The notes under the pieces: model-generated | Told to the model about the DNA's origin: nothing | The model's database searches: none | Seen by the model: the letters and a program-made list of their open reading frames with translations, nothing else | Shown here: positions 8,108 through 44,480 of the stretch, piece by piece | Numbering within the stretch: position 1 is the stretch's first letter | How the letters are laid out: every line of letters starts with the position of its first letter | Translations under genes and position numbers: made by a program | NCBI GenBank assembly: GCA_027064005.1 | Contig: JAMOQM010000058.1 | Coordinates: forward strand, 1-49,801 | Source: Candidatus Cloacimonadota bacterium | GTDB lineage: Bacteria; Cloacimonadota; Cloacimonadia; Cloacimonadales; JAMOQM01 | Direction of reading: 5' to 3' | DNA length: 49,801 nt

Positions 8108-9062
8108 ATTAAATAAATTTTTGGAATTTTTTACCAATAATGCAGTTGGTGTATTGACCACGATAACGAATGAACAGTTGGAATTAACTTCCGCAGATGA
8201 AGTACCTTTTGATTTTGATATTATCCAAAAAAATATTGAAGTTCCCTTGGTTTTTTTATCTGTAAATTATACAGGTGATCAAAATTTTCAATTACAATAT
8301 GCTTTACCTAGAAAAATGGTTGCGATGCTTTCTGACTTTATGATGTTGGGTGATGGTTCAGCAGAGTATGACCCTGCAGAACACAATGATGCAATTAAGG
8401 AAATGTTTAACCAAATTTTAGGAAGTTTAACTGCCGAATTGAGTGGAGAAGGAATTAACATAACAGGCGATGTTGCTAATGTTGAATCAACTGATTTAGA
8501 AATTCAAAAAGAATTTTTAGCCGATAATATTATGGTTCCGTTCACAATGAAAATTATTGGACAAGAATTAAATATGTTTTTAGTGCTTGATCAAGTTGCT
8601 ATAGATTCAATTGAAAGTTTGTTTCCAACAATAGAATCAAATGCGTCTAATGAGCCATCAATGGATGAATTAATTACTCAGCTTGAAGGAAAAGATAATT
8701 CAAACCAAAGAGTACAACAGCCATCAGAGCAAAGACAGGTAAATGTTTCAAGAGCTGATTTTTCAGAATTCGATAATAGAAAAGCAGATTTGGGTAGTAA
8801 TATTAATCTTGGTTTACTGATGGATATCAATTTACCTGTTACTGTTGAACTTGGCAGAAAAAATATGCGGATTAAAGAATTGCTTGATTTGGGGCAAGGT
8901 TCGGTGGTTGAATTGGATAAATTGGCGGGAGATTTTGTCGATGTCCTTATTAATGGACAAAAATTTGCCGTTGGCGAGATAATGGTTGCTGATGATAATT
9001 TTGCAGTTAGGATAGTAAATCTAATTTCTCGTGAAGATAGAATTAAAAGTTTAGGTAAATGA
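8091..9062 (+). CDS. fliN: Flagellar motor switch protein FliN/FliY with a CheC-like N-terminal domain
   Basis: The C-terminal ~75 residues are the SpoA domain of FliN (INLPVTVELGRKNMRIKELL, then a GSVVELDKLAGDFVDVLING strand pair). Ahead of it are ~220 residues absent from short enteric FliN. They look like a CheC-type domain and contain one E-x-x-N-x-x-x-G motif (E104, N107, G111), the phosphatase signature of CheC/FliY. A short FliY-like helix MDELITQLEG precedes a polar linker. The protein may therefore be a C-ring part that also dephosphorylates CheY-P; that activity is inferred. An AAGGAG site inside fliM sets the start. Confidence 0.88.
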   Translation: MAQNNKLNKFLEFFTNNAVGVLTTITNEQLELTSADEVPFDFDIIQKNIEVPLVFLSVNYTGDQNFQLQYALPRKMVAMLSDFMMLGDGSAEYDPAEHNDAIKEMFNQILGSLTAELSGEGINITGDVANVESTDLEIQKEFLADNIMVPFTMKIIGQELNMFLVLDQVAIDSIESLFPTIESNASNEPSMDELITQLEGKDNSNQRVQQPSEQRQVNVSRADFSEFDNRKADLGSNINLGLLMDINLPVTVELGRKNMRIKELLDLGQGSVVELDKLAGDFVDVLINGQKFAVGEIMVADDNFAVRIVNLISREDRIKSLGK

Positions 9063-9487
9063 TGTTAAATTATTTATACGGTTTTATTTTTCTTTGTGCA
9101 AATAAATCTGTGTTTGGAGGAGTTTCTTCAACAGCTCCAACTACAGAAATGCCATCATTCGGGATGATGATTTTCAAATTAATAATTTCTTTAGTTATCA
9201 TCGTTGTGATTCTATATTTTTCTATTAAAATATTTAAAAAATACTCATCACAAGGAAAATTTATCAGCAATAAAAATTCTAATATAATTGATATTATGCC
9301 CTTAACAAATCTTCAAGCAATATATGTTGTTGAAATGTATGGATTAATTTATATATTATCAGTCAGCAACGATAACGTAAATTTATTAGAAAAAATTGAA
9401 GATCCTGATAAAATTAAGGAAATATTAGATTCCAAACAACAAGAAAGTAAATTTAATAACATTTTTAAAAAATTAGGAAAAAAATGA
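9059..9487 (+). CDS. fliO: Flagellar biosynthesis protein FliO
   Basis: FliO is an assembly factor for the FliP ring of the flagellar type III export gate. This 142-aa protein has an N-terminal hydrophobic stretch and a strong TM helix at about residues 37-60. A cytoplasmic domain with IDIMPLTNLQAIYVVEMYG matches the FliO pattern. It overlaps fliN/Y by 4 bases and fliP by 4 bases (ATGA), so all three are probably coupled. Sequence conservation in FliO is low, and the call leans on position. Confidence 0.85.
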   Translation: MMLNYLYGFIFLCANKSVFGGVSSTAPTTEMPSFGMMIFKLIISLVIIVVILYFSIKIFKKYSSQGKFISNKNSNIIDIMPLTNLQAIYVVEMYGLIYILSVSNDNVNLLEKIEDPDKIKEILDSKQQESKFNNIFKKLGKK

Positions 9488-35005: not shown

Positions 35006-37363
35006 ATGAAAAAATATCTTTTTCTAATTATAATTTTAGTCTCTCAACTGAAAATATTTTGTTTAGAGACTTTTGATATAGATTTGTATGAAAGAGATGT
35101 TTACGAAAAATCTTTAGAATTCCAAACCCAAAATAAATTAGATTTAGCCCTTCAAGAAATAGAAACAATCCCTGATTTGTCAAATAATTACAAAGCCCGG
35201 ATTTTATATATTAAGCTCTTATTTGTTAATGAAAAATATGATAAATTGATTGAAGAAATTAAAAAATCTCAAAAATATTTTTTACAAAAAGGTATAAATA
35301 GTATCTCTTACGAAATAATTGTAAGTTATGCTAATATGGCAAAATTAGAAGAGTTAAGGACTTTAATCTCTGAAATTGGTTCAGAAAAAGTTAAGGATTC
35401 AGTTGGCATTTTATTAGTTAAATATCTTCAGGAAAAAGATTATGAAAAATATTTGGATGTGATTAATAAACTTCAAAATATGGTTTTTGATTCTGATGAA
35501 AAATTGCTCTTGCGATCCATTTATTTTTATTATAAAAAAGATTATAAAAAAGCAATTGCCGGATTTTCAAATCTTAAAAATAAGTCAGGGAATGTTAAAG
35601 ATATTTCAGAACACTATTTAAGTTTAATCCAATTTTATACAAAAGAAAATATACTTGAATTTAATGATGGTTTTGAAAATTCGGTAAAACAAAACTTGAT
35701 AGTTTATGAATCGAGAAATGCCGATTTTAGGCATATTTCATCTTTAAATAAATTCAATACTAAGTTGTATTATAATTTATTAGCTTATAAATATTTTCAT
35801 GAGAAAAAATATCAACTGTCTTTAAATACTCTGAAGTATGAAGAAAATTCTTTCTATTATTTTCTTTTGGCAGAAAGTGAACAGAAAATGAAAGATTACA
35901 AGTTAGCTATTAAACATTATAAATACTTGAAAAATAGAAAATTAACTCAACAAGATTATCTTAATTATGCGATTGGAAATTGTTATTATCAACTTTTCAA
36001 ATATAATAACTCTGCTTATTATTGGATGAAAATGCTATATTCAAAAGACAATAACTATAAATTTACCGGATTGAAAAAACTTTCAAAATTATATACTTTT
36101 ACAAAACATTATGAATATGCAATTCCATATTACCAATCTTTATTGGATAAATATTCTTATAGAAATAAAAAATACGTGAGAGCTTTCTTTAGAATTATTT
36201 TAAAAGAAAAAAGAAGGGTTTTGCTGGAGGAATATTTTACCAAATACAAAAAATTATTAGATAAAGGTTTACGCTCTCAAATTACATTATTTTTGGGCAA
36301 ACAATATGAAGAAGAAAAATTATATGAAAAAGCTATCAAATACTATCGGGAATTTCTCAAATTACAAAAAGATGATGAAATAGAATTCAAAATATGTTAT
36401 TTGAAATATAAATTGGATGGTGAAAAATCTTATGAAGATTTTCTGAAGAACTTTGTGTTTACCCATCCAAACAATTCTTTAAATAAGCAATTTGCCCTTG
36501 ATTTGTTAAAATTTTATCTAAAAAAAGAAGAGTATTCCAAAACAATAAATATCATTAATGATTTGGATTCGGTTTCTGTAAAATTAGATAGTTTGAATTA
36601 TTTCAAAGCAATAGCTTTAAATGGATTAAACAAATGGAATGAATCATCTGAAATACTTTACAAAATGGTTCGGAAAGATTCTGTATATAACTCATATTAC
36701 AGACTTTACGAATTTACTTTGAAAAATATGGACGCCAAAAATAGTATTGAATTTCTTAACACAAAACTGGATTCAACAAATAATCTATTTCTAAGGAAAA
36801 GAGAGATTTTAGCTTTGTCAGAAATTTATGATAAAAACAGATTATTTCACGAAGCTATCCAAAATTATGAAGATTTGTTGAAAGACACCACTCTAACACT
36901 TTCTAAAAAGGAAGTTTATGAAATAAATATTAAGATTGCAACTGATTATATTGTAATTAAAAAATACCAAAAAGCTATTGATACCTTAAATCTTATTTAT
37001 CAAAAAGGGTTCAGGGGAGAAGAATTGGATTATCTAATGTTTGTCGCTTATGCGGCAAAGAAAGATACTGATATGCAAAAAAAATATCTGTTGGATTATT
37101 TCTTTAATTATCAGAATGGAAATGAATTTGACTTGGTTGCGCTGAAATTAATTCAAATATATTCCCAAGAAGACAAAAACCTTTTGGCTTGGATAATTTA
37201 TAAAGAGGTTTTAAAAACTAAAAGCAAGGATTTTAAAACAATTGCAGAAATTGAAAAACTGAGAAATAATTTTAAAACTATGGATTTTGATTCGCTATTA
37301 TATTATCAAGTACAACCAATTAAAAAAGTATTCTTTTGGGAGAATGATAAAAATCAAAATTAG
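35006..37363 (+). CDS. Secreted TPR-repeat protein
   Basis: This 785-aa protein has a signal peptide (residues ~1-20) and then almost continuous TPR-like helical pairs. Examples are DYKKAIAGFSNLKNKSGN, DYKLAIKHYKYLKN, LYEKAIKYYREFLKL and KYQKAIDTLNLIYQKG. It should be periplasmic or envelope-attached and probably serves as a protein-binding scaffold. I do not recognise a specific family. Its ATG directly follows the activase stop with no gap, so it is probably coupled. About 160 AT-rich bases follow before the next operon. Confidence 0.75.
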   Translation: MKKYLFLIIILVSQLKIFCLETFDIDLYERDVYEKSLEFQTQNKLDLALQEIETIPDLSNNYKARILYIKLLFVNEKYDKLIEEIKKSQKYFLQKGINSISYEIIVSYANMAKLEELRTLISEIGSEKVKDSVGILLVKYLQEKDYEKYLDVINKLQNMVFDSDEKLLLRSIYFYYKKDYKKAIAGFSNLKNKSGNVKDISEHYLSLIQFYTKENILEFNDGFENSVKQNLIVYESRNADFRHISSLNKFNTKLYYNLLAYKYFHEKKYQLSLNTLKYEENSFYYFLLAESEQKMKDYKLAIKHYKYLKNRKLTQQDYLNYAIGNCYYQLFKYNNSAYYWMKMLYSKDNNYKFTGLKKLSKLYTFTKHYEYAIPYYQSLLDKYSYRNKKYVRAFFRIILKEKRRVLLEEYFTKYKKLLDKGLRSQITLFLGKQYEEEKLYEKAIKYYREFLKLQKDDEIEFKICYLKYKLDGEKSYEDFLKNFVFTHPNNSLNKQFALDLLKFYLKKEEYSKTINIINDLDSVSVKLDSLNYFKAIALNGLNKWNESSEILYKMVRKDSVYNSYYRLYEFTLKNMDAKNSIEFLNTKLDSTNNLFLRKREILALSEIYDKNRLFHEAIQNYEDLLKDTTLTLSKKEVYEINIKIATDYIVIKKYQKAIDTLNLIYQKGFRGEELDYLMFVAYAAKKDTDMQKKYLLDYFFNYQNGNEFDLVALKLIQIYSQEDKNLLAWIIYKEVLKTKSKDFKTIAEIEKLRNNFKTMDFDSLLYYQVQPIKKVFFWENDKNQN

Positions 37364-37521: not shown

Positions 37522-37854
37522 ATGAAATATATTGTTTTAGAAAAGGTTAAAGAAGGAATGATCACTGCTAAAGATTTGTTATCTGATAAAGGTAAAATTC
37601 TTTTAAAGAAAAATGTGGTTTTGGACGAATTCTATTTGAATTTTGCCCGAAAGCAAGGGATTGAAAGTATCTGTATTAAAGAAGATAGTGATGAAAAAAT
37701 TAAAGAGCCTTCTAATATGGAAAAATTAATCTTAAAACAAGAAGTAAAAAATGAATATAAAGAAATGTTTAGAATGACAACCTCCGACCAAAATATGACG
37801 ATTTTTTTGGATGCAATTATTGAAAATGAAGTAAGGAAAAGAATTTATGGTTAA
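37522..37854 (+). CDS. Small protein resembling the N-terminal domain of HD-GYP proteins
   Basis: This 110-aa protein has the strand pattern found before many HD-GYP and HD-domain phosphodiesterases: LEKVKEGMITAKDLLSDKGK, then LLKKNVVLDEFYLNF and a GIESICIK strand. It is followed by a charged helix and a tail. Here it stands alone, without the catalytic domain. The next gene, an HDOD protein, overlaps it by 8 bases. The pair looks like a split form of a two-domain signalling protein. Its function is unknown. GAGGA precedes the ATG. Confidence 0.65.
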   Translation: MKYIVLEKVKEGMITAKDLLSDKGKILLKKNVVLDEFYLNFARKQGIESICIKEDSDEKIKEPSNMEKLILKQEVKNEYKEMFRMTTSDQNMTIFLDAIIENEVRKRIYG

Positions 37855-38698
37855 CCAAAATAAAATGCTGGAAATAACTCACATTATAGAAAAATGTGAA
37901 CCGTTTCTTTCTTTAAATTCTGCATTTATAGAAATAAATTCTCTGTTGAAAAATTCTAAATTTAATAAGGAAAATGGTTTTAGATATATTGCAAAAGATC
38001 CGTTAATGACATGTATAGTTTTGAGTAAAGCTGCTAATTCTGTAGATAACGGGAGAATTTTAACATTAAAAAAAGCTGTTGAGATATTAGGAGAAGACTC
38101 TTTAAAAAATATTTTTTCTCAACAAATTATGCAAGAGACTTTTTTAGATTCTCGAAAAGATGAAAATGAAGATTTTTGGCTTCATAATTTAGGTGTGGGA
38201 ATAATATCAAAAATTATTTGCGAAAATACGATTTATTCTTCAAAAGCAGATGAGTTATATTTCGCTGGTTTATTACACGATCTTGGTTCTTATGTAATTA
38301 AAAAATATTTTAAAAATGATTACCAAATTATTCAAGAAATTGTCGGAAAAGACCCAAATAAAAGATTATTGTTGGCTGAAAAAAAAGTTTTGGGAGTAAC
38401 ACATCAAGAAATCGGGACTTTTTATGCAACAAAAATGAACCTTCCAAAATCAATTATTAATGTTATTCGCCATCATCATTATGTCGATTCATCTATGGAT
38501 GATAAACAAAATATTGCTATTGTTATGGTTGCAAATAATTTGGCGAAAGGGATGAAATTTGGTAAAAGTGATAATTTTTATCTCGAACCGATTCCTGATT
38601 GGGTTTGGCGTTATCTACAATTAGATCAAACAATGTATTATCAAATAATCTCTGATATTCAGGATAAATTTGATATCGCAACCGCTTTTATTAAATAA
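37847..38698 (+). CDS. HDOD-domain signalling protein
   Basis: This 283-aa protein is an HDOD domain through most of its length, with IAKDPLMTCIVLSKAANS, LTLKKAVEILGEDSL, LLHDLGSYVI and VTHQEIGTFYATKMNLP then IRHHHY. Some HD-type His/Asp pairs remain, but HDOD proteins usually lack the full metal site and act as signalling scaffolds. It is cytoplasmic with no TM segment. It overlaps the upstream small gene by 8 bases and is followed 2 bases later by a large unknown gene. Confidence 0.85.
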   Translation: MVNQNKMLEITHIIEKCEPFLSLNSAFIEINSLLKNSKFNKENGFRYIAKDPLMTCIVLSKAANSVDNGRILTLKKAVEILGEDSLKNIFSQQIMQETFLDSRKDENEDFWLHNLGVGIISKIICENTIYSSKADELYFAGLLHDLGSYVIKKYFKNDYQIIQEIVGKDPNKRLLLAEKKVLGVTHQEIGTFYATKMNLPKSIINVIRHHHYVDSSMDDKQNIAIVMVANNLAKGMKFGKSDNFYLEPIPDWVWRYLQLDQTMYYQIISDIQDKFDIATAFIK

Positions 38699-38700
38699 TT

Positions 38701-40239
38701 ATGAATTTAGCTAAATTTAATTTTTCAGAATTCGATCTCAATTTTTCAGCAACAAAAAAAAATGGCGTTTATTTAATTAATTCTAATAATGATTTCATCA
38801 ATTATTATCTCTCGCTTCAAATTGCCTTTGAGAATGTTTTGAAAAAAAAGAGAGTATTATTTTTTACAGATAATGATTTTTGCACATTGAAAGATTATGG
38901 AGTTAATATTAATTTGGATTTCAATAGAATCTTTAATAGTGATTATTTTTTACTTCTTCAATATCCAAAAAATCTTTATGATTTGTTTAAGGATCCCGGT
39001 GTTGTAACATCTTTTCTGAGAGATATTGATAATTATATAGAAGAATTTAATCCCGAGATAGTTATTTTTGATAGGGTTAATAAGTTCTATTCATCAGATG
39101 ATGTAAAAATAGATTCTTTTAAAAATAGGTTTTTAATTTCACTCAAAAAAAATTATTCCATTAATTATCTGATAGGATCCGTTGGAGAATCTTTTGAATA
39201 TAAAAAGATAGAAAATCTATTCGAAGGTATTTTTAAGATTAATTATTCTTACAATGATAGAGAAAAAAACTTTATAACATATTCTATTCCAAGTAAAAAA
39301 GAAGTGAAATTAAAAATTGATCTTTCGCCAAACGGGATAGTTGTTGATCCTAAAGGAATTAATTTTAAAAAAGTTAGTCTTAAAAAAATAGCCGTTATTC
39401 TGTATCCTTCGTTTCTGAATAATTTTGAAAAAGATATTAAAAATATTTTTGGAAATCAAGTTTTGTGCAAATCATTTGTAAATGAAAAGGATTTACAATT
39501 TGATAAATATAAAGAATCACAATTAGCAATATTCTTACCGGATTGGATTGGAGACCCCAGTGTTTTTGAATATGCAAGGAAAATAAAAAAAGAATTTCCG
39601 AAAATAACACTTTTTCTCTTAACATCAAAACTAACTGCATATAGTCACAAAGCAAGAGCAAAACGGATTGGTTTTAATGATTTTCTTGAAATGCCTGCAG
39701 GTATTAATGAAATAAAAAAATTGTTCCGAAAAAAAATAAGCAATAGTAATTCTATTGAAGATATAGACGGTTACAACGTAATTTTTGATAAAAATAATAT
39801 TATGGAAAATGATAAATATTCTCGAGATGAATTGTCGGAAATTTTAACAAGATTTTCTAAAAAGAAGATTTTTGCTGAAGAAAGTTTTGCTTTGTTTTCA
39901 ATAATCTCAAGAGTTAAATTTGATGAAAAGGAAATTGAGAAAAATATAAATTTTCCGGGGCTTGAACTGATGATTGGGAAAAATATAGATTCCGGATATC
40001 ACTATGTTCTTATTGTTAATTCCAAGACCGGAGATGTCTCAAAAATTTATAAAAATAGCATTTTGAAGGAATTTAATAAAAATTTAGACATTGGTGATAA
40101 TTTTACTAATTTTGAGAACAATGTAATAATTGATTATGCTCCCAAAAAGATTGAAAAAAAAATAATCTCCTTTGAAAGTTATTTTTATCCCTTAGAGAAT
40201 CCTAATTTTAATGTGATTTTGGAAAAGATATTATTATGA
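38701..40239 (+). CDS. Unknown protein: degenerate RecA/KaiC-like plus receiver-like domains
   Basis: I do not recognise this 512-aa family. Residues ~15-215 have the alternating strand/helix order of RecA/KaiC-type ATPases (KKRVLFFTDND, then EFNPEIVIFDRVNKF as a Walker-B-like strand, INYLIGSVGES), but no GxxGxGK[ST] Walker A. Residues ~225-345 look like a receiver domain (IAVILYPSF, LAIFLPDWIGDP, ITLFLLTSKL, GFNDFLEMPAGINEIKKL), with Asp in LPDW but no Lys after the last strand. The last ~150 residues are a further alpha/beta domain. It is probably a non-hydrolysing signalling scaffold. The downstream gene overlaps by 4 bases. Confidence 0.6.
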   Translation: MNLAKFNFSEFDLNFSATKKNGVYLINSNNDFINYYLSLQIAFENVLKKKRVLFFTDNDFCTLKDYGVNINLDFNRIFNSDYFLLLQYPKNLYDLFKDPGVVTSFLRDIDNYIEEFNPEIVIFDRVNKFYSSDDVKIDSFKNRFLISLKKNYSINYLIGSVGESFEYKKIENLFEGIFKINYSYNDREKNFITYSIPSKKEVKLKIDLSPNGIVVDPKGINFKKVSLKKIAVILYPSFLNNFEKDIKNIFGNQVLCKSFVNEKDLQFDKYKESQLAIFLPDWIGDPSVFEYARKIKKEFPKITLFLLTSKLTAYSHKARAKRIGFNDFLEMPAGINEIKKLFRKKISNSNSIEDIDGYNVIFDKNNIMENDKYSRDELSEILTRFSKKKIFAEESFALFSIISRVKFDEKEIEKNINFPGLELMIGKNIDSGYHYVLIVNSKTGDVSKIYKNSILKEFNKNLDIGDNFTNFENNVIIDYAPKKIEKKIISFESYFYPLENPNFNVILEKILL

Positions 40240-40535
40240 TTGTTTTAACGTTTGTTATTTTAGTTATCAATCTTATCATCTTGTTTTTTTCAATTTATGA
40301 TGAATATCTCACAAAACATCTTGAAGTTCATAAAAAAAATCAACATAATAAAAAAAAATTAACTTCAAAATTATCTTTAGATATAACGAAGCGAAATTTT
40401 TTTTTGGAAGAAGAAAATGGCTTGATATTACGTAAAAAGATCTTAGAAAGTGAGAGTGAGAAAATAACAGATTTAATCACTAATGCTAATCTAAAACAAA
40501 TAACTTTTTTTTTGAAACATAAAGGATTTGAATAA
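40236..40535 (+). CDS. Small single-TM protein of unknown function
   Basis: This 99-aa protein has one N-terminal TM helix (residues ~2-20, all hydrophobic) and a basic, coiled cytoplasmic tail rich in Lys, Glu and Leu. It overlaps the preceding large gene by 4 bases (ATGA), and the next gene starts two bases after its stop. It may anchor the signalling proteins of this operon to the inner membrane. No family was recognised. Confidence 0.6.
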   Translation: MIVLTFVILVINLIILFFSIYDEYLTKHLEVHKKNQHNKKKLTSKLSLDITKRNFFLEEENGLILRKKILESESEKITDLITNANLKQITFFLKHKGFE

Positions 40536-40536
40536 A

Positions 40537-40908
40537 ATGAATAAAAATGTTGGAATTTTCGGGAAAAACCAAGTCGCAAATCTCAGCCTGTTTAAGATAT
40601 TAGAAAAACAAGATTATTACCCTGTAATGTCAAGTAGCTTAGATGTTTTTTTAGAACAACTTAAACATTTCAATTTTGAGATTATTTTTTGTAATTTTAT
40701 TAATTCAAATGACAATGATTATCAAATAGTTGATAAAATTTTAATGATGAAACCGGAAATAAATATTATTTGCGTAGTGAATAAAAAATCTTATTTAAAA
40801 GCGTATGCACTATTTAATTTAGGAGTAGTGGAAATTATTGAAGCTCCTTTTAATTATCAAAATCTTATTGAAAAATTTAACCAAGTCGTGTTTAATTGTT
40901 TGACTTAA
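40537..40908 (+). CDS. Degenerate response-regulator receiver protein
   Basis: This 123-aa protein has the five-strand receiver order: NVGIFGKNQVANLSLFKILE, FEIIFCNFINS, INIICVVNKKS, GVVEIIEAPFNYQNLI. The phospho-accepting Asp at the end of strand 3 is replaced by Asn (FCNF), the acidic pair after strand 1 is missing, and the usual KP before the last helix is AP. It should not be phosphorylated in the normal way and is probably a binding module. I start at the ATG at 40537, 10 bases after AAAGGA; a TTG at 40528 is too close to that site. Confidence 0.7.
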   Translation: MNKNVGIFGKNQVANLSLFKILEKQDYYPVMSSSLDVFLEQLKHFNFEIIFCNFINSNDNDYQIVDKILMMKPEINIICVVNKKSYLKAYALFNLGVVEIIEAPFNYQNLIEKFNQVVFNCLT

Positions 40909-40955: not shown

Positions 40956-43900
40956 ATGGCAAATTTTAAGAAAGCTACAATGGATGGAAATACAGCTGCT
41001 TCACATGTGGCATATGCGTTCAGCGATGTTGCTGCTATATATCCTATTACTCCATCAAGCCCTATGGGTGAGATGATCGATGTTTGGTCTGCTTACGGAC
41101 GTAAAAATATTTTTGGTGAGGAAGTTGACGTAACTGAAATGCAATCGGAAGCCGGCGCTTCAGGAGCTGTTCATGGATCTTTAACGGCTGGTGCTTTAAC
41201 AACTACTTTTACAGCATCTCAAGGTTTAATGTTGATGTTGCCTGTTATGCATAAAATTGCAGGTGAAATGCTTCCGGCAGTATTTCATGTTTCTGCTCGG
41301 TCACTTGCAGCACAATCATTATCTATTTTTGGTGATCACTCTGATGTAATGTCAGCAAGAAATACAGGTTTTGCAATGTTGGCGTCAAATTCTGTACAAG
41401 AAATTATGGATTTAGCTTTAGTTGCTCATTTATCTTCAATTAAATCAAGAATTCCTTTTATGCACTTTTTTGATGGATTTAGAACTTCTCACGAGATTCA
41501 AAAAATTGAAGTTATTGATTATGATGTAATGAATGAATTAGTTGATAAAAAAGCTATTACAGAATTTAAAAACAGAGCTTTAAATCCTCAACATCCTTTA
41601 TTAAAAGTTGGTGCTCAAAACCCTGATGTATATTTCCAAGGCAGGGAAACTGTTAATAAATACTATGATGAATTACCGGAAATTGTTCAAGATTATATGA
41701 ATAAAGTTTCCGAAAAAATTGGTAGAAAATATCGACTTTTTGATTATGTTGGTGCTGAAGATGCCAATAAAATTATTGTCCTTATGGGTAGTGGTGCTGA
41801 AACTGTAGAAGAAACAATAAACTATTTGAATGCTAATGGTGAAAAACTCGGACTTCTCAAAGTTAGACTTTACAGACCTTTCTCTGTAAAACATTTCATT
41901 GATGCAATTCCTGAATCCGTTAACAAGATCGCTGTTCTCGATAGAACAAAAGAACCGGGTGCAATCGGTGAACCACTTTATCTTGATGTTGTTACAGCCT
42001 TGAAAGATAAAAAAGATCTGACAATTATTGGTGGCAGATACGGTCTTTCTTCAAAAGAATTTACTCCTTCCATGGTAAAAGCTGTTTATGATTATCTTGA
42101 CGGTGATTGCAAGCACGGATTTACAGTTGGTATTAATGATGATGTTACTAACTTATCTATTCCTGTTAATGAAGAAATAAATACAATCCCCGAAGGGACA
42201 ATCTCTTGCAAATTCTGGGGATTAGGTTCAGATGGGACAGTTGGGGCAAATAAAAATTCAATCAAAATTATTGGTGATAATACCGATATGTTTGCTCAAG
42301 GTTATTTCCAATATGATTCAAAAAAATCAGGTGGAATTACTAGAAGTCACTTAAGATTTGGTAAGACTCCTATTCAATCACCTTATTTAGTTAAAAATGC
42401 AGATTTTATTGCTTGTCACAATCCGGCTTTTATCGGACGATATGATATTATTGAAGGAATTAGAGAAAAAGGTGTGTTCTTAATTAATTCTCAATGGTCA
42501 AAAGAAGAAGTTTTTGAAAATTTAACTAAAGATATGCAGGAAACTATTATCAATAAAAAAGTTAGATTATACAATATCAATGCTCTTGAGATTGCTAAAA
42601 AAGTTGGACTTGGTCAAAGAATTAACACTGTAATGCAAGCTGCTTTCTTTATCATCAGTGAAGTTCTTCCGCGTGAAGAAGCAATTAAATTGATTAAAAA
42701 ATCTATTGAAAAATCCTACATGAAAAAAGGTAAAGATGTTGTTGAAATGAATTGGAATGCTGTTGACTTAACAAATGAAGCTCTCGTTCCGATTGAAGTT
42801 CCGGCTAATCTTCCTTCTAAATATAAAGAAATGAAAAAACTTGTTCCTGACAATGCTTCTGAATTTGTTAAAAAAATTGTAGAACCTATTATGAGAGAAA
42901 AAGGTGACGAAATTAAAGTTTCCGAAATGCCTCTTGATGGTGCAGTTGAACTTGGAACAACTAAATTTGAAAAACGTGGTATTGCTCCGGTAGTTCCTCG
43001 CTGGAATGCTGATAAATGTATTCAATGTAATCAATGTTCGTTTGTTTGTCCTCACGCAGCTATTAGACCAAAACTTATCGACCGTAAAGATTTAGAAAAT
43101 GCTCCTGAAACTTTCAAAACTTTGAAAGCTCAAGGAAAAGACGGAGATTCTTTTGATTATAGAATGCAAGTATATATTGATGACTGTCAAGCTTGCGGAG
43201 TTTGCGTCGAAGTTTGTCCTGTAAATGCTTTGGAAATGAAACCTATTGAAGAAGAAAGAGCTGCCGGTGAAACAGAAAATTACAAATTCTTTGAAACTCT
43301 TGAAGAAGATGTTAAAAGTTCTTTCGTGAAAGAAACTACGGTTAAAGGCTCTCAATTTAAACAACCATTACTTGAGTTCTCCGGAGCTTGTGCCGGTTGT
43401 GGTGAAACTCCTTACGCTAAATTATTAACTCAATTATTTGGCGATAGAATGATTGTTGCAAATGCAACCGGTTGTTCTTCAATTTGGGGTGGAACATTTC
43501 CTAATATTCCTTATTGTGCGAATAAAAATGGTCACGGTCCTGCTTGGGCTAACTCTCTATTCGAAGATAATGCGGAATATGGTTTAGGAATGAGATTGGC
43601 TGTTGAAGCAAATAGAAAACAACTCTTAACTAATATTAAAAAACTTGCTTTGAAAAATATTGATGCTGAATTGGTTGCAGCTTTCAAATATGCAATTGAT
43701 AATTGGTCAAAAACTGATTCGGAAGCAAAAGAAAATGCTGTAAAAATAAAATCACTTTTGAAAAATGTTAAACCGAAAGATAAAGAAACCACCGAGCTTT
43801 TAGCAAAAGTTACAGAATTAAAAGACTATATTGTTGATAAATCTGTTTGGGCTATTGGTGGTGACGGTTGGGCTTATGATATTGGATATGGCGGATTAGA

Positions 43901-44480
43901 TCACATAATGGCTTCGGGTAAAAACATTAACGTATTGGTTCTTGATACGGAAGTTTATTCCAATACAGGCGGTCAAGCTTCCAAATCAACTCAACTTGGT
44001 GCTGTTGCTAAATTTACAGAAGCAGGTAAAAAGACTACAAAGAAAGATCTTGGTAGAATGATGATGAGTTACGGTTATGTTTATGTTGCGTCTGTTTCAA
44101 TGGGTGCAAATAAAAACCAACTTGTGAAAGCAATGTTGGAAGCTGAAGCTTACGATGGTCCTTCAATCATTATTGCTTATGCTCCATGTATTAATCACGG
44201 TTTGAATATGACTCATGCTGAAGATGAAGAAAAGCTTGTTGTAGATAGCGGTTATTGGTTGTTATACAGATACAATCCTTTGAATAAACTTGAAGGTAAA
44301 AATCCATTTGTTTTAGAATCAAAAGAACCTAATTATGAGTTAGTTCACCAAATTACTAAAAATGAAAAACGATATAGTTCTTTAGAAAGAACTTTTCCTG
44401 AGAATGTCCCGGCTTTCAGAGAGGGATTAATTAATTTCTTTAAAGAAAGATATGAAACATATAAAAAAATGGCTGATTAA
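40956..44480 (+). CDS. nifJ: Pyruvate:ferredoxin (flavodoxin) oxidoreductase
   Basis: PFOR oxidises pyruvate to acetyl-CoA and CO2 and reduces ferredoxin. This single-chain, 1174-aa form has the usual order. The N-terminal domain has AYAFSDVAAIYPITPSSPMG and is followed by the gamma domain. Two [4Fe-4S] motifs follow (CIQCNQCSFVCP near residue 690 and CQACGVCVEVCP near 750). The TPP-binding domain has GACAGCGETPYAKL, then GGDGWAYDIGYGGLDH and VYSNTGGQASKS. AAGGA precedes the ATG. It is a one-gene unit with its own candidate promoter and terminator. Confidence 0.97.
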   Translation: MANFKKATMDGNTAASHVAYAFSDVAAIYPITPSSPMGEMIDVWSAYGRKNIFGEEVDVTEMQSEAGASGAVHGSLTAGALTTTFTASQGLMLMLPVMHKIAGEMLPAVFHVSARSLAAQSLSIFGDHSDVMSARNTGFAMLASNSVQEIMDLALVAHLSSIKSRIPFMHFFDGFRTSHEIQKIEVIDYDVMNELVDKKAITEFKNRALNPQHPLLKVGAQNPDVYFQGRETVNKYYDELPEIVQDYMNKVSEKIGRKYRLFDYVGAEDANKIIVLMGSGAETVEETINYLNANGEKLGLLKVRLYRPFSVKHFIDAIPESVNKIAVLDRTKEPGAIGEPLYLDVVTALKDKKDLTIIGGRYGLSSKEFTPSMVKAVYDYLDGDCKHGFTVGINDDVTNLSIPVNEEINTIPEGTISCKFWGLGSDGTVGANKNSIKIIGDNTDMFAQGYFQYDSKKSGGITRSHLRFGKTPIQSPYLVKNADFIACHNPAFIGRYDIIEGIREKGVFLINSQWSKEEVFENLTKDMQETIINKKVRLYNINALEIAKKVGLGQRINTVMQAAFFIISEVLPREEAIKLIKKSIEKSYMKKGKDVVEMNWNAVDLTNEALVPIEVPANLPSKYKEMKKLVPDNASEFVKKIVEPIMREKGDEIKVSEMPLDGAVELGTTKFEKRGIAPVVPRWNADKCIQCNQCSFVCPHAAIRPKLIDRKDLENAPETFKTLKAQGKDGDSFDYRMQVYIDDCQACGVCVEVCPVNALEMKPIEEERAAGETENYKFFETLEEDVKSSFVKETTVKGSQFKQPLLEFSGACAGCGETPYAKLLTQLFGDRMIVANATGCSSIWGGTFPNIPYCANKNGHGPAWANSLFEDNAEYGLGMRLAVEANRKQLLTNIKKLALKNIDAELVAAFKYAIDNWSKTDSEAKENAVKIKSLLKNVKPKDKETTELLAKVTELKDYIVDKSVWAIGGDGWAYDIGYGGLDHIMASGKNINVLVLDTEVYSNTGGQASKSTQLGAVAKFTEAGKKTTKKDLGRMMMSYGYVYVASVSMGANKNQLVKAMLEAEAYDGPSIIIAYAPCINHGLNMTHAEDEEKLVVDSGYWLLYRYNPLNKLEGKNPFVLESKEPNYELVHQITKNEKRYSSLERTFPENVPAFREGLINFFKERYETYKKMAD

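Follow-up and report, generated by a model that had tools for sequence, protein, structure and literature searches.

Between positions 37522 and 40908 of the window (the whole stretch of 49,801 nucleotides of Cloacimonadota DNA that was analysed), five genes follow one another on the + strand, each overlapping the next or separated from it by no more than 8 nt, just as the first-pass annotation had described them. Gene A (37522..37854) encodes a 110-aa HD-GYP-N-like protein; gene B (37847..38698), a 283-aa HDOD protein; gene C (38701..40239), a 512-aa protein with the architecture of BcsE; gene D (40236..40535), a 99-aa protein with one N-terminal transmembrane (TM) helix; and gene E (40528..40908), a stand-alone receiver-like domain of 126 aa when read from its TTG. 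A and B overlap by 8 nt, B and C are 2 nt apart, C and D share the 4 nt of an ATGA, and D and E either overlap by 8 nt or, if E starts at an alternative in-frame ATG at 40538, stand 2 nt apart. Upstream of the module, the gene for a 785-aa TPR protein ends at 37363. The candidate promoter reported earlier for the upstream stretch turns out to be weak, with 37 promoter-like matches at the module against 25.8 +/- 5.5 in shuffles, only modestly above the AT-rich background. Because this excess is modest and no terminator-like site was found at the module, we infer a transcription unit from the packing of the genes only.

Are these five frames really genes, and does their order mean anything beyond this one genome? 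Divergent genomes carry relatives of all five in this same order, which excludes chance ORFs. With the C protein as query, full-length C was found in 7 of 125 genomes of the phylum, the window's included. (Matches to the C profile in most genomes of the phylum were set aside, being only receiver-domain matches to ordinary regulators.) The order A-B-C-D-E recurs in G016 (L009, whose D and E are small ORFs that were read by hand), in G020 (L010), and in G023 (L012), and in G008 (L013), C-D-E is present and the end of the contig cuts inside B; with this last one counted, these are four divergent genomes of another family. Two further families have C-D-E, in G002 (L008, where the gene upstream is, by eye, a TIM-barrel-like protein) and in G004 (L011), and carriers of the module span four families in all. 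The relatives of C share 15–24% protein identity with the C of the window, and the keeping of gene order at such distances argues for selection on the unit. The first-pass annotation had staked its reading on an order conserved beyond this genome, and other families of the phylum do share it. Stand-alone A is confined to module-bearing genomes.

Around the module, neighbors differ between families. In the window, a pyruvate:ferredoxin oxidoreductase-like gene (40956-44480, named from sequence) follows E, as one does in G004 (L011), and this is a small piece of synteny beyond the module. In the MAG with L012, two ORFs (8580-9435) take the place of a single HDOD gene B, through a frameshift or an assembly error. 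A scan of the genome contig collection with peptide patterns from the window C alone gave no match; the seven-member C alignment was too divergent for such patterns, and a five-member alignment, used instead, led to five Cloacimonadota MAG loci, which account for five of the six relatives. The distribution given here comes from searched genomes within the phylum and from peptide-pattern scans outside it, so that a wider occurrence is possible.

Gene A had been called an HD-GYP-N-like stub. Its N-terminal half resembles the domain with which HD-GYP proteins begin, and positions 1-73 of the A profile match residues 1-75 in a protein of 390 aa of the HD-GYP type (L062; domain E 4.4e-5). That protein is encoded at another place in the same genome, and its HD-GYP assignment comes from reading the sequence. 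The C-terminal part is a helical tail in which K80, F83, and D89 are invariant. B is, as first described, an HDOD protein, and an ordinary one (PF08668, E 2.1e-32; 112.6 bits against a cut-off of 22.9, over domain positions 4-194 of 196). What could join the two? In G004 (L063, contig C53, 427-4378), a receiver fused to an A-type tail is followed by an HDOD gene and then by the gene for an 822-aa PAS/hybrid histidine kinase-like protein, apparently an alternative A-B unit that is wired to a phosphorelay. This fusion of tail and receiver beside an HDOD gene suggests that A docks onto HDOD proteins by its tail and may form a unit with B. In both Pseudomonas and Xanthomonas, HDOD proteins act on flagella; SadB of Pseudomonas, which contains an HDOD domain, is a c-di-GMP-binding protein that controls flagella (PMC6543031).

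In C, the first-pass annotation recognized degenerate RecA-like and receiver-like domains, correctly, and missed a third, C-terminal GGDEF-like alpha/beta domain. Residues about 1-228 are RecA/KaiC-like and lack a P-loop, residues about 229-347 are a receiver that lacks the phospho-Asp, and residues about 370-512 are a degenerate GGDEF-like domain by predicted fold only; neither a Walker A motif nor a receiver phospho-Asp was found in the C of the window. Across the family, Pfam finds KaiC (PF06745) in five of seven members (best 1.1e-9), Response_reg in five of seven, and CBP_BcsE, weakly, in two of seven; at the sequence level, the PDB entries that the C profile matches are receivers and KaiC. 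AlphaFold models, for which alignment depth was limited to six, are of low confidence for the window C (pLDDT 49, pTM 0.36) and better for its relative at L060 (pLDDT 75, pTM 0.46), and both contain a RecA-like domain, a receiver-like domain, and a third beta-alpha-beta-beta-alpha-beta domain. In Foldseek searches against 350,542 PDB chains, the window model has BcsE at ranks 1-3 over 583-587 alignment columns, and the L060 model has it at ranks 4, 9, 10, and 12 (E 3-6e-12; 565-580 columns), level with KaiC. For both models, the TM-scores of these matches over the whole chain are low, as the position of the domains relative to one another is not well predicted. Among the top matches, BcsE alone has all three domains in C's order.

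Is C a distant counterpart of BcsE, or did a KaiC-like domain, a receiver, and a GGDEF-like fold fuse independently and converge on the same layout, in a protein with another mode of action, such as that of a KaiC-type oligomer? In Pfam, C matches KaiC best; in Foldseek, KaiC ties with BcsE; and hhalign found no significant similarity to BcsE in the REC-like and GGDEF-like parts. Convergence would have to account, however, for three degenerate domains whose order and length agree with those of BcsE, for a BcsF-like gene downstream of C, and for an N-terminal domain that hhalign aligns co-linearly with that of BcsE over 204 columns (P 0.0012, against 0.11-0.67 off the diagonal), a likeness that we call suggestive. 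Full-length comparisons were not decisive, whether the C profile was set against the single E. coli BcsE (P 0.27) or against an eight-member BcsE alignment (P 0.021). Overall, we take convergence to be unlikely, if a serious contender.

The one-TM protein noticed earlier is D, whose single N-terminal TM helix (residues 2-20) is followed by positive charges and by a tail presumed to be cytosolic. The window D has no K/R before the helix and three in the 15 residues after it; its relatives have 0-2 before and 3-6 after, and BcsF has 0 and 5. Sequence similarity of D to BcsF was not found. E scores 21.6 bits against PF00072, below the cut-off of 30.2 for a phospho-receiver, and was rightly described as a receiver without its phospho-Asp; the window E has Asn there, and two of the seven family members (L011 and L012) have Asp. 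With the Asp lost in the window and kept in some relatives, E appears to be drifting from phosphorylation rather than being uniformly dead. The broader claim that every domain here has lost its usual catalytic or phospho-accepting residues thus stands for the window C (Walker A and receiver Asp) and for the window E and does not hold throughout the E family or for B, which keeps typical HDOD residues. HDOD domains are noncatalytic by nature. Could the whole set simply be decaying, a group of pseudo-signaling genes without function? Motif losses in most members and the two fragments of B at L012 are what one would expect of decay, and open frames and a gene order kept across families at 15–24% identity are what one would not; we regard this explanation as very improbable.

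If C looks so much like BcsE, why not file it there? Against the Pfam family CBP_BcsE, the best C reaches 15.9 bits, below the gathering score of 25 and over the N-terminal part only, and the window genome has no CBP_BcsE match. The RxxD motif of the GGDEF domain (R415xxD418) is present in eight of eight BcsE and that of the REC domain in six of eight, whereas the window C has no RxxD except at residue 107, and the other six C have none at the corresponding places. Sensing of c-di-GMP by C through the known BcsE sites was rejected, RxxD being gone at both sites in all seven. BcsB is absent from all 22 genomes searched, the window genome included, and PilZ is absent from six of seven carriers, again including the window genome. 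Judged by BcsB and PilZ, C is not part of a Bcs cellulose system (BcsA with PilZ, BcsB, and BcsQR), and because of these absences, together with the subthreshold Pfam score and the missing RxxD, we do not call it BcsE; C has a BcsE-like layout, yet it is not a member of the BcsE family. As to c-di-GMP itself, the window genome encodes real GGDEF proteins, so c-di-GMP signaling probably exists in this organism. The two genomes that share a genus have, convergent with E, a gene for a protein of ~302 aa that combines a GAF-like with a degenerate GGDEF domain (L010, 8264-9172; L013, 2647-3552); the protein keeps an RDTD I-site-like motif and resembles the cytosolic part of PelD.

What, then, might the module serve? 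For Cloacimonadota, the literature searched holds only metagenome-level hints of motility genes (PMC13082233). The flagellar export gene flhA is present in 12 of 123 genomes of the phylum, and all seven carriers of the module are among these 12 (hypergeometric P 1.1e-8 by genome and 0.049 by family). Since the value by family is only 0.049, phylogeny explains part of the link. C is missing from 5 of the 12 flagellated genomes, so the module does not belong to the flagellar core, and it lies outside any flagellar cluster. Strong HDOD matches occur in exactly the 10 FlhA-positive genomes among 22 tested. The flagellar tie of the module is correlative and, with four carrier families, confounded by phylogeny. 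Six families of the sampled order and class include genomes with flhA, and flagella look to have been patchily lost or gained across the phylum. In G010, a flagellated relative that has no C gene, an HDOD gene lies directly behind flhB-flhA-flhF-flhG-fliA-like genes (L097, contig C50, 5710-12934; named by eye).

Co-occurrence with flagellar or type IV pilus genes had been proposed as a check on the first reading, and the two halves come out differently: seven of seven carriers are FlhA positive, and the pilus does not discriminate. PilT/PilB-type ATPases are found in 22 of 22 genomes, with the module or without it, and the type IV pilus was therefore rejected as a discriminating partner. One might still propose that the module regulates type IV pili (twitching or pilus polarity) and not flagella, given that these ATPases occur in all genomes tested, but they occur regardless of the module, whereas FlhA does predict it, and we find the proposal quite improbable. 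A third possibility is that the module regulates, in the manner of BcsE or PelD, an exporter of exopolysaccharide or of a cell-surface polymer that has no Bcs proteins, with the link to flagella a phylogenetic coincidence. The nearest analogues in architecture, BcsE and PelD, both act in polysaccharide secretion (PMC7439463), and the association with flagella stands at P 0.049 by family. No polysaccharide synthase was recognized among the neighbors scanned, however, BcsB and PilZ are missing from the window genome, and the neighbors vary between families; we judge such a role improbable.

We favor, and hold to have about an even chance of being correct, the reading that the operon encodes a membrane-tethered, nonenzymatic, BcsE-BcsF-like scaffold for signal integration that serves a flagellar or motile lifestyle rather than cellulose secretion. 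The membrane-tethered complex proposed in the first-pass annotation fares well here: this is a conserved five-gene signaling module, and its scaffold is probably membrane anchored and nonenzymatic. BcsF captures BcsE by adding a strand to a BcsE sheet. By analogy, D would sit in the inner membrane, where its cytosolic tail would capture the NTPase-like domain of C and so anchor it. C would dimerize, and its two dead domains, the REC-like and the GGDEF-like, would be exposed for docking; the C-terminal tail of A would bind the HDOD protein B; B (a noncatalytic HD domain) and E would feed the state of a second messenger or a phosphorelay into the scaffold, which in turn would sequester or release a partner that affects motility. 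Who might that partner be? BcsE binds a BcsQ-like SIMIBI ATPase via its GGDEF-like domain and tail, and the SIMIBI ATPases FlhG and FlhF are encoded beside flhA in flagellated relatives. It is conceivable, if improbable in our own estimation, that C docks FlhG or FlhF at the membrane through D and that the control of cellulose secretion and that of flagella share an ancestral scaffold.

In the literature searched, BcsE is described solely in cellulose secretion systems, as an accessory. A BcsE-BcsF-like counterpart in a distant phylum, in genomes that lack the cellulose genes looked for, suggests a scaffold that predates cellulose or has a more general use. The module also suggests that dead signaling domains can be retained together as a docking platform, and it gives us a testable candidate regulator of the motile lifestyle in Cloacimonadota, a little-known phylum.

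The first-pass annotation had called this the segment of the window least explained by known systems, a description that gives way now that the three domains of C are seen to be arranged as in BcsE and D to match BcsF in position and topology. Other likenesses are partial. B belongs to the same family (PF08668) as the flagella-acting HDOD proteins SadB and GsmR, but it is a stand-alone HDOD protein paired with an adaptor, A, instead of a YbaK-HDOD protein. The N-terminal domain of C shares its fold with the KaiC/RecA-like signaling ATPases (PF06745, matched by five of seven members), but it has no Walker A, and this single RecA-like domain is followed by REC and GGDEF-like domains. With PelD (GAF-GGDEF*), C shares a degenerate GGDEF as a docking or sensing domain (PMC7439463), but not the GAF domain, the N-terminal TM region, or the I-site. 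BcsE itself is a degenerate NTPase-REC-GGDEF trio, and the membrane peptide BcsF uses its tail to capture the NTPase-like domain (PMC7439463; PMC11470070). D resembles BcsF in being the gene immediately downstream (with an ATGA overlap in the window, as in bcsE/bcsF) and in its single N-terminal TM helix with positive charges behind it, and it differs in a longer tail (ORFs of 99-143 aa against 63 aa) that carries an NPL-like motif in most relatives. C resembles BcsE (PF10995, the c-di-GMP-sensing regulator of cellulose secretion) in its length of about 520 aa and in its domain order, an NTPase-like domain without P-loop, a REC domain without Asp, and a degenerate GGDEF; it differs in being found in Cloacimonadota, and across the whole chain, BcsE is its best or near-best match in the PDB.
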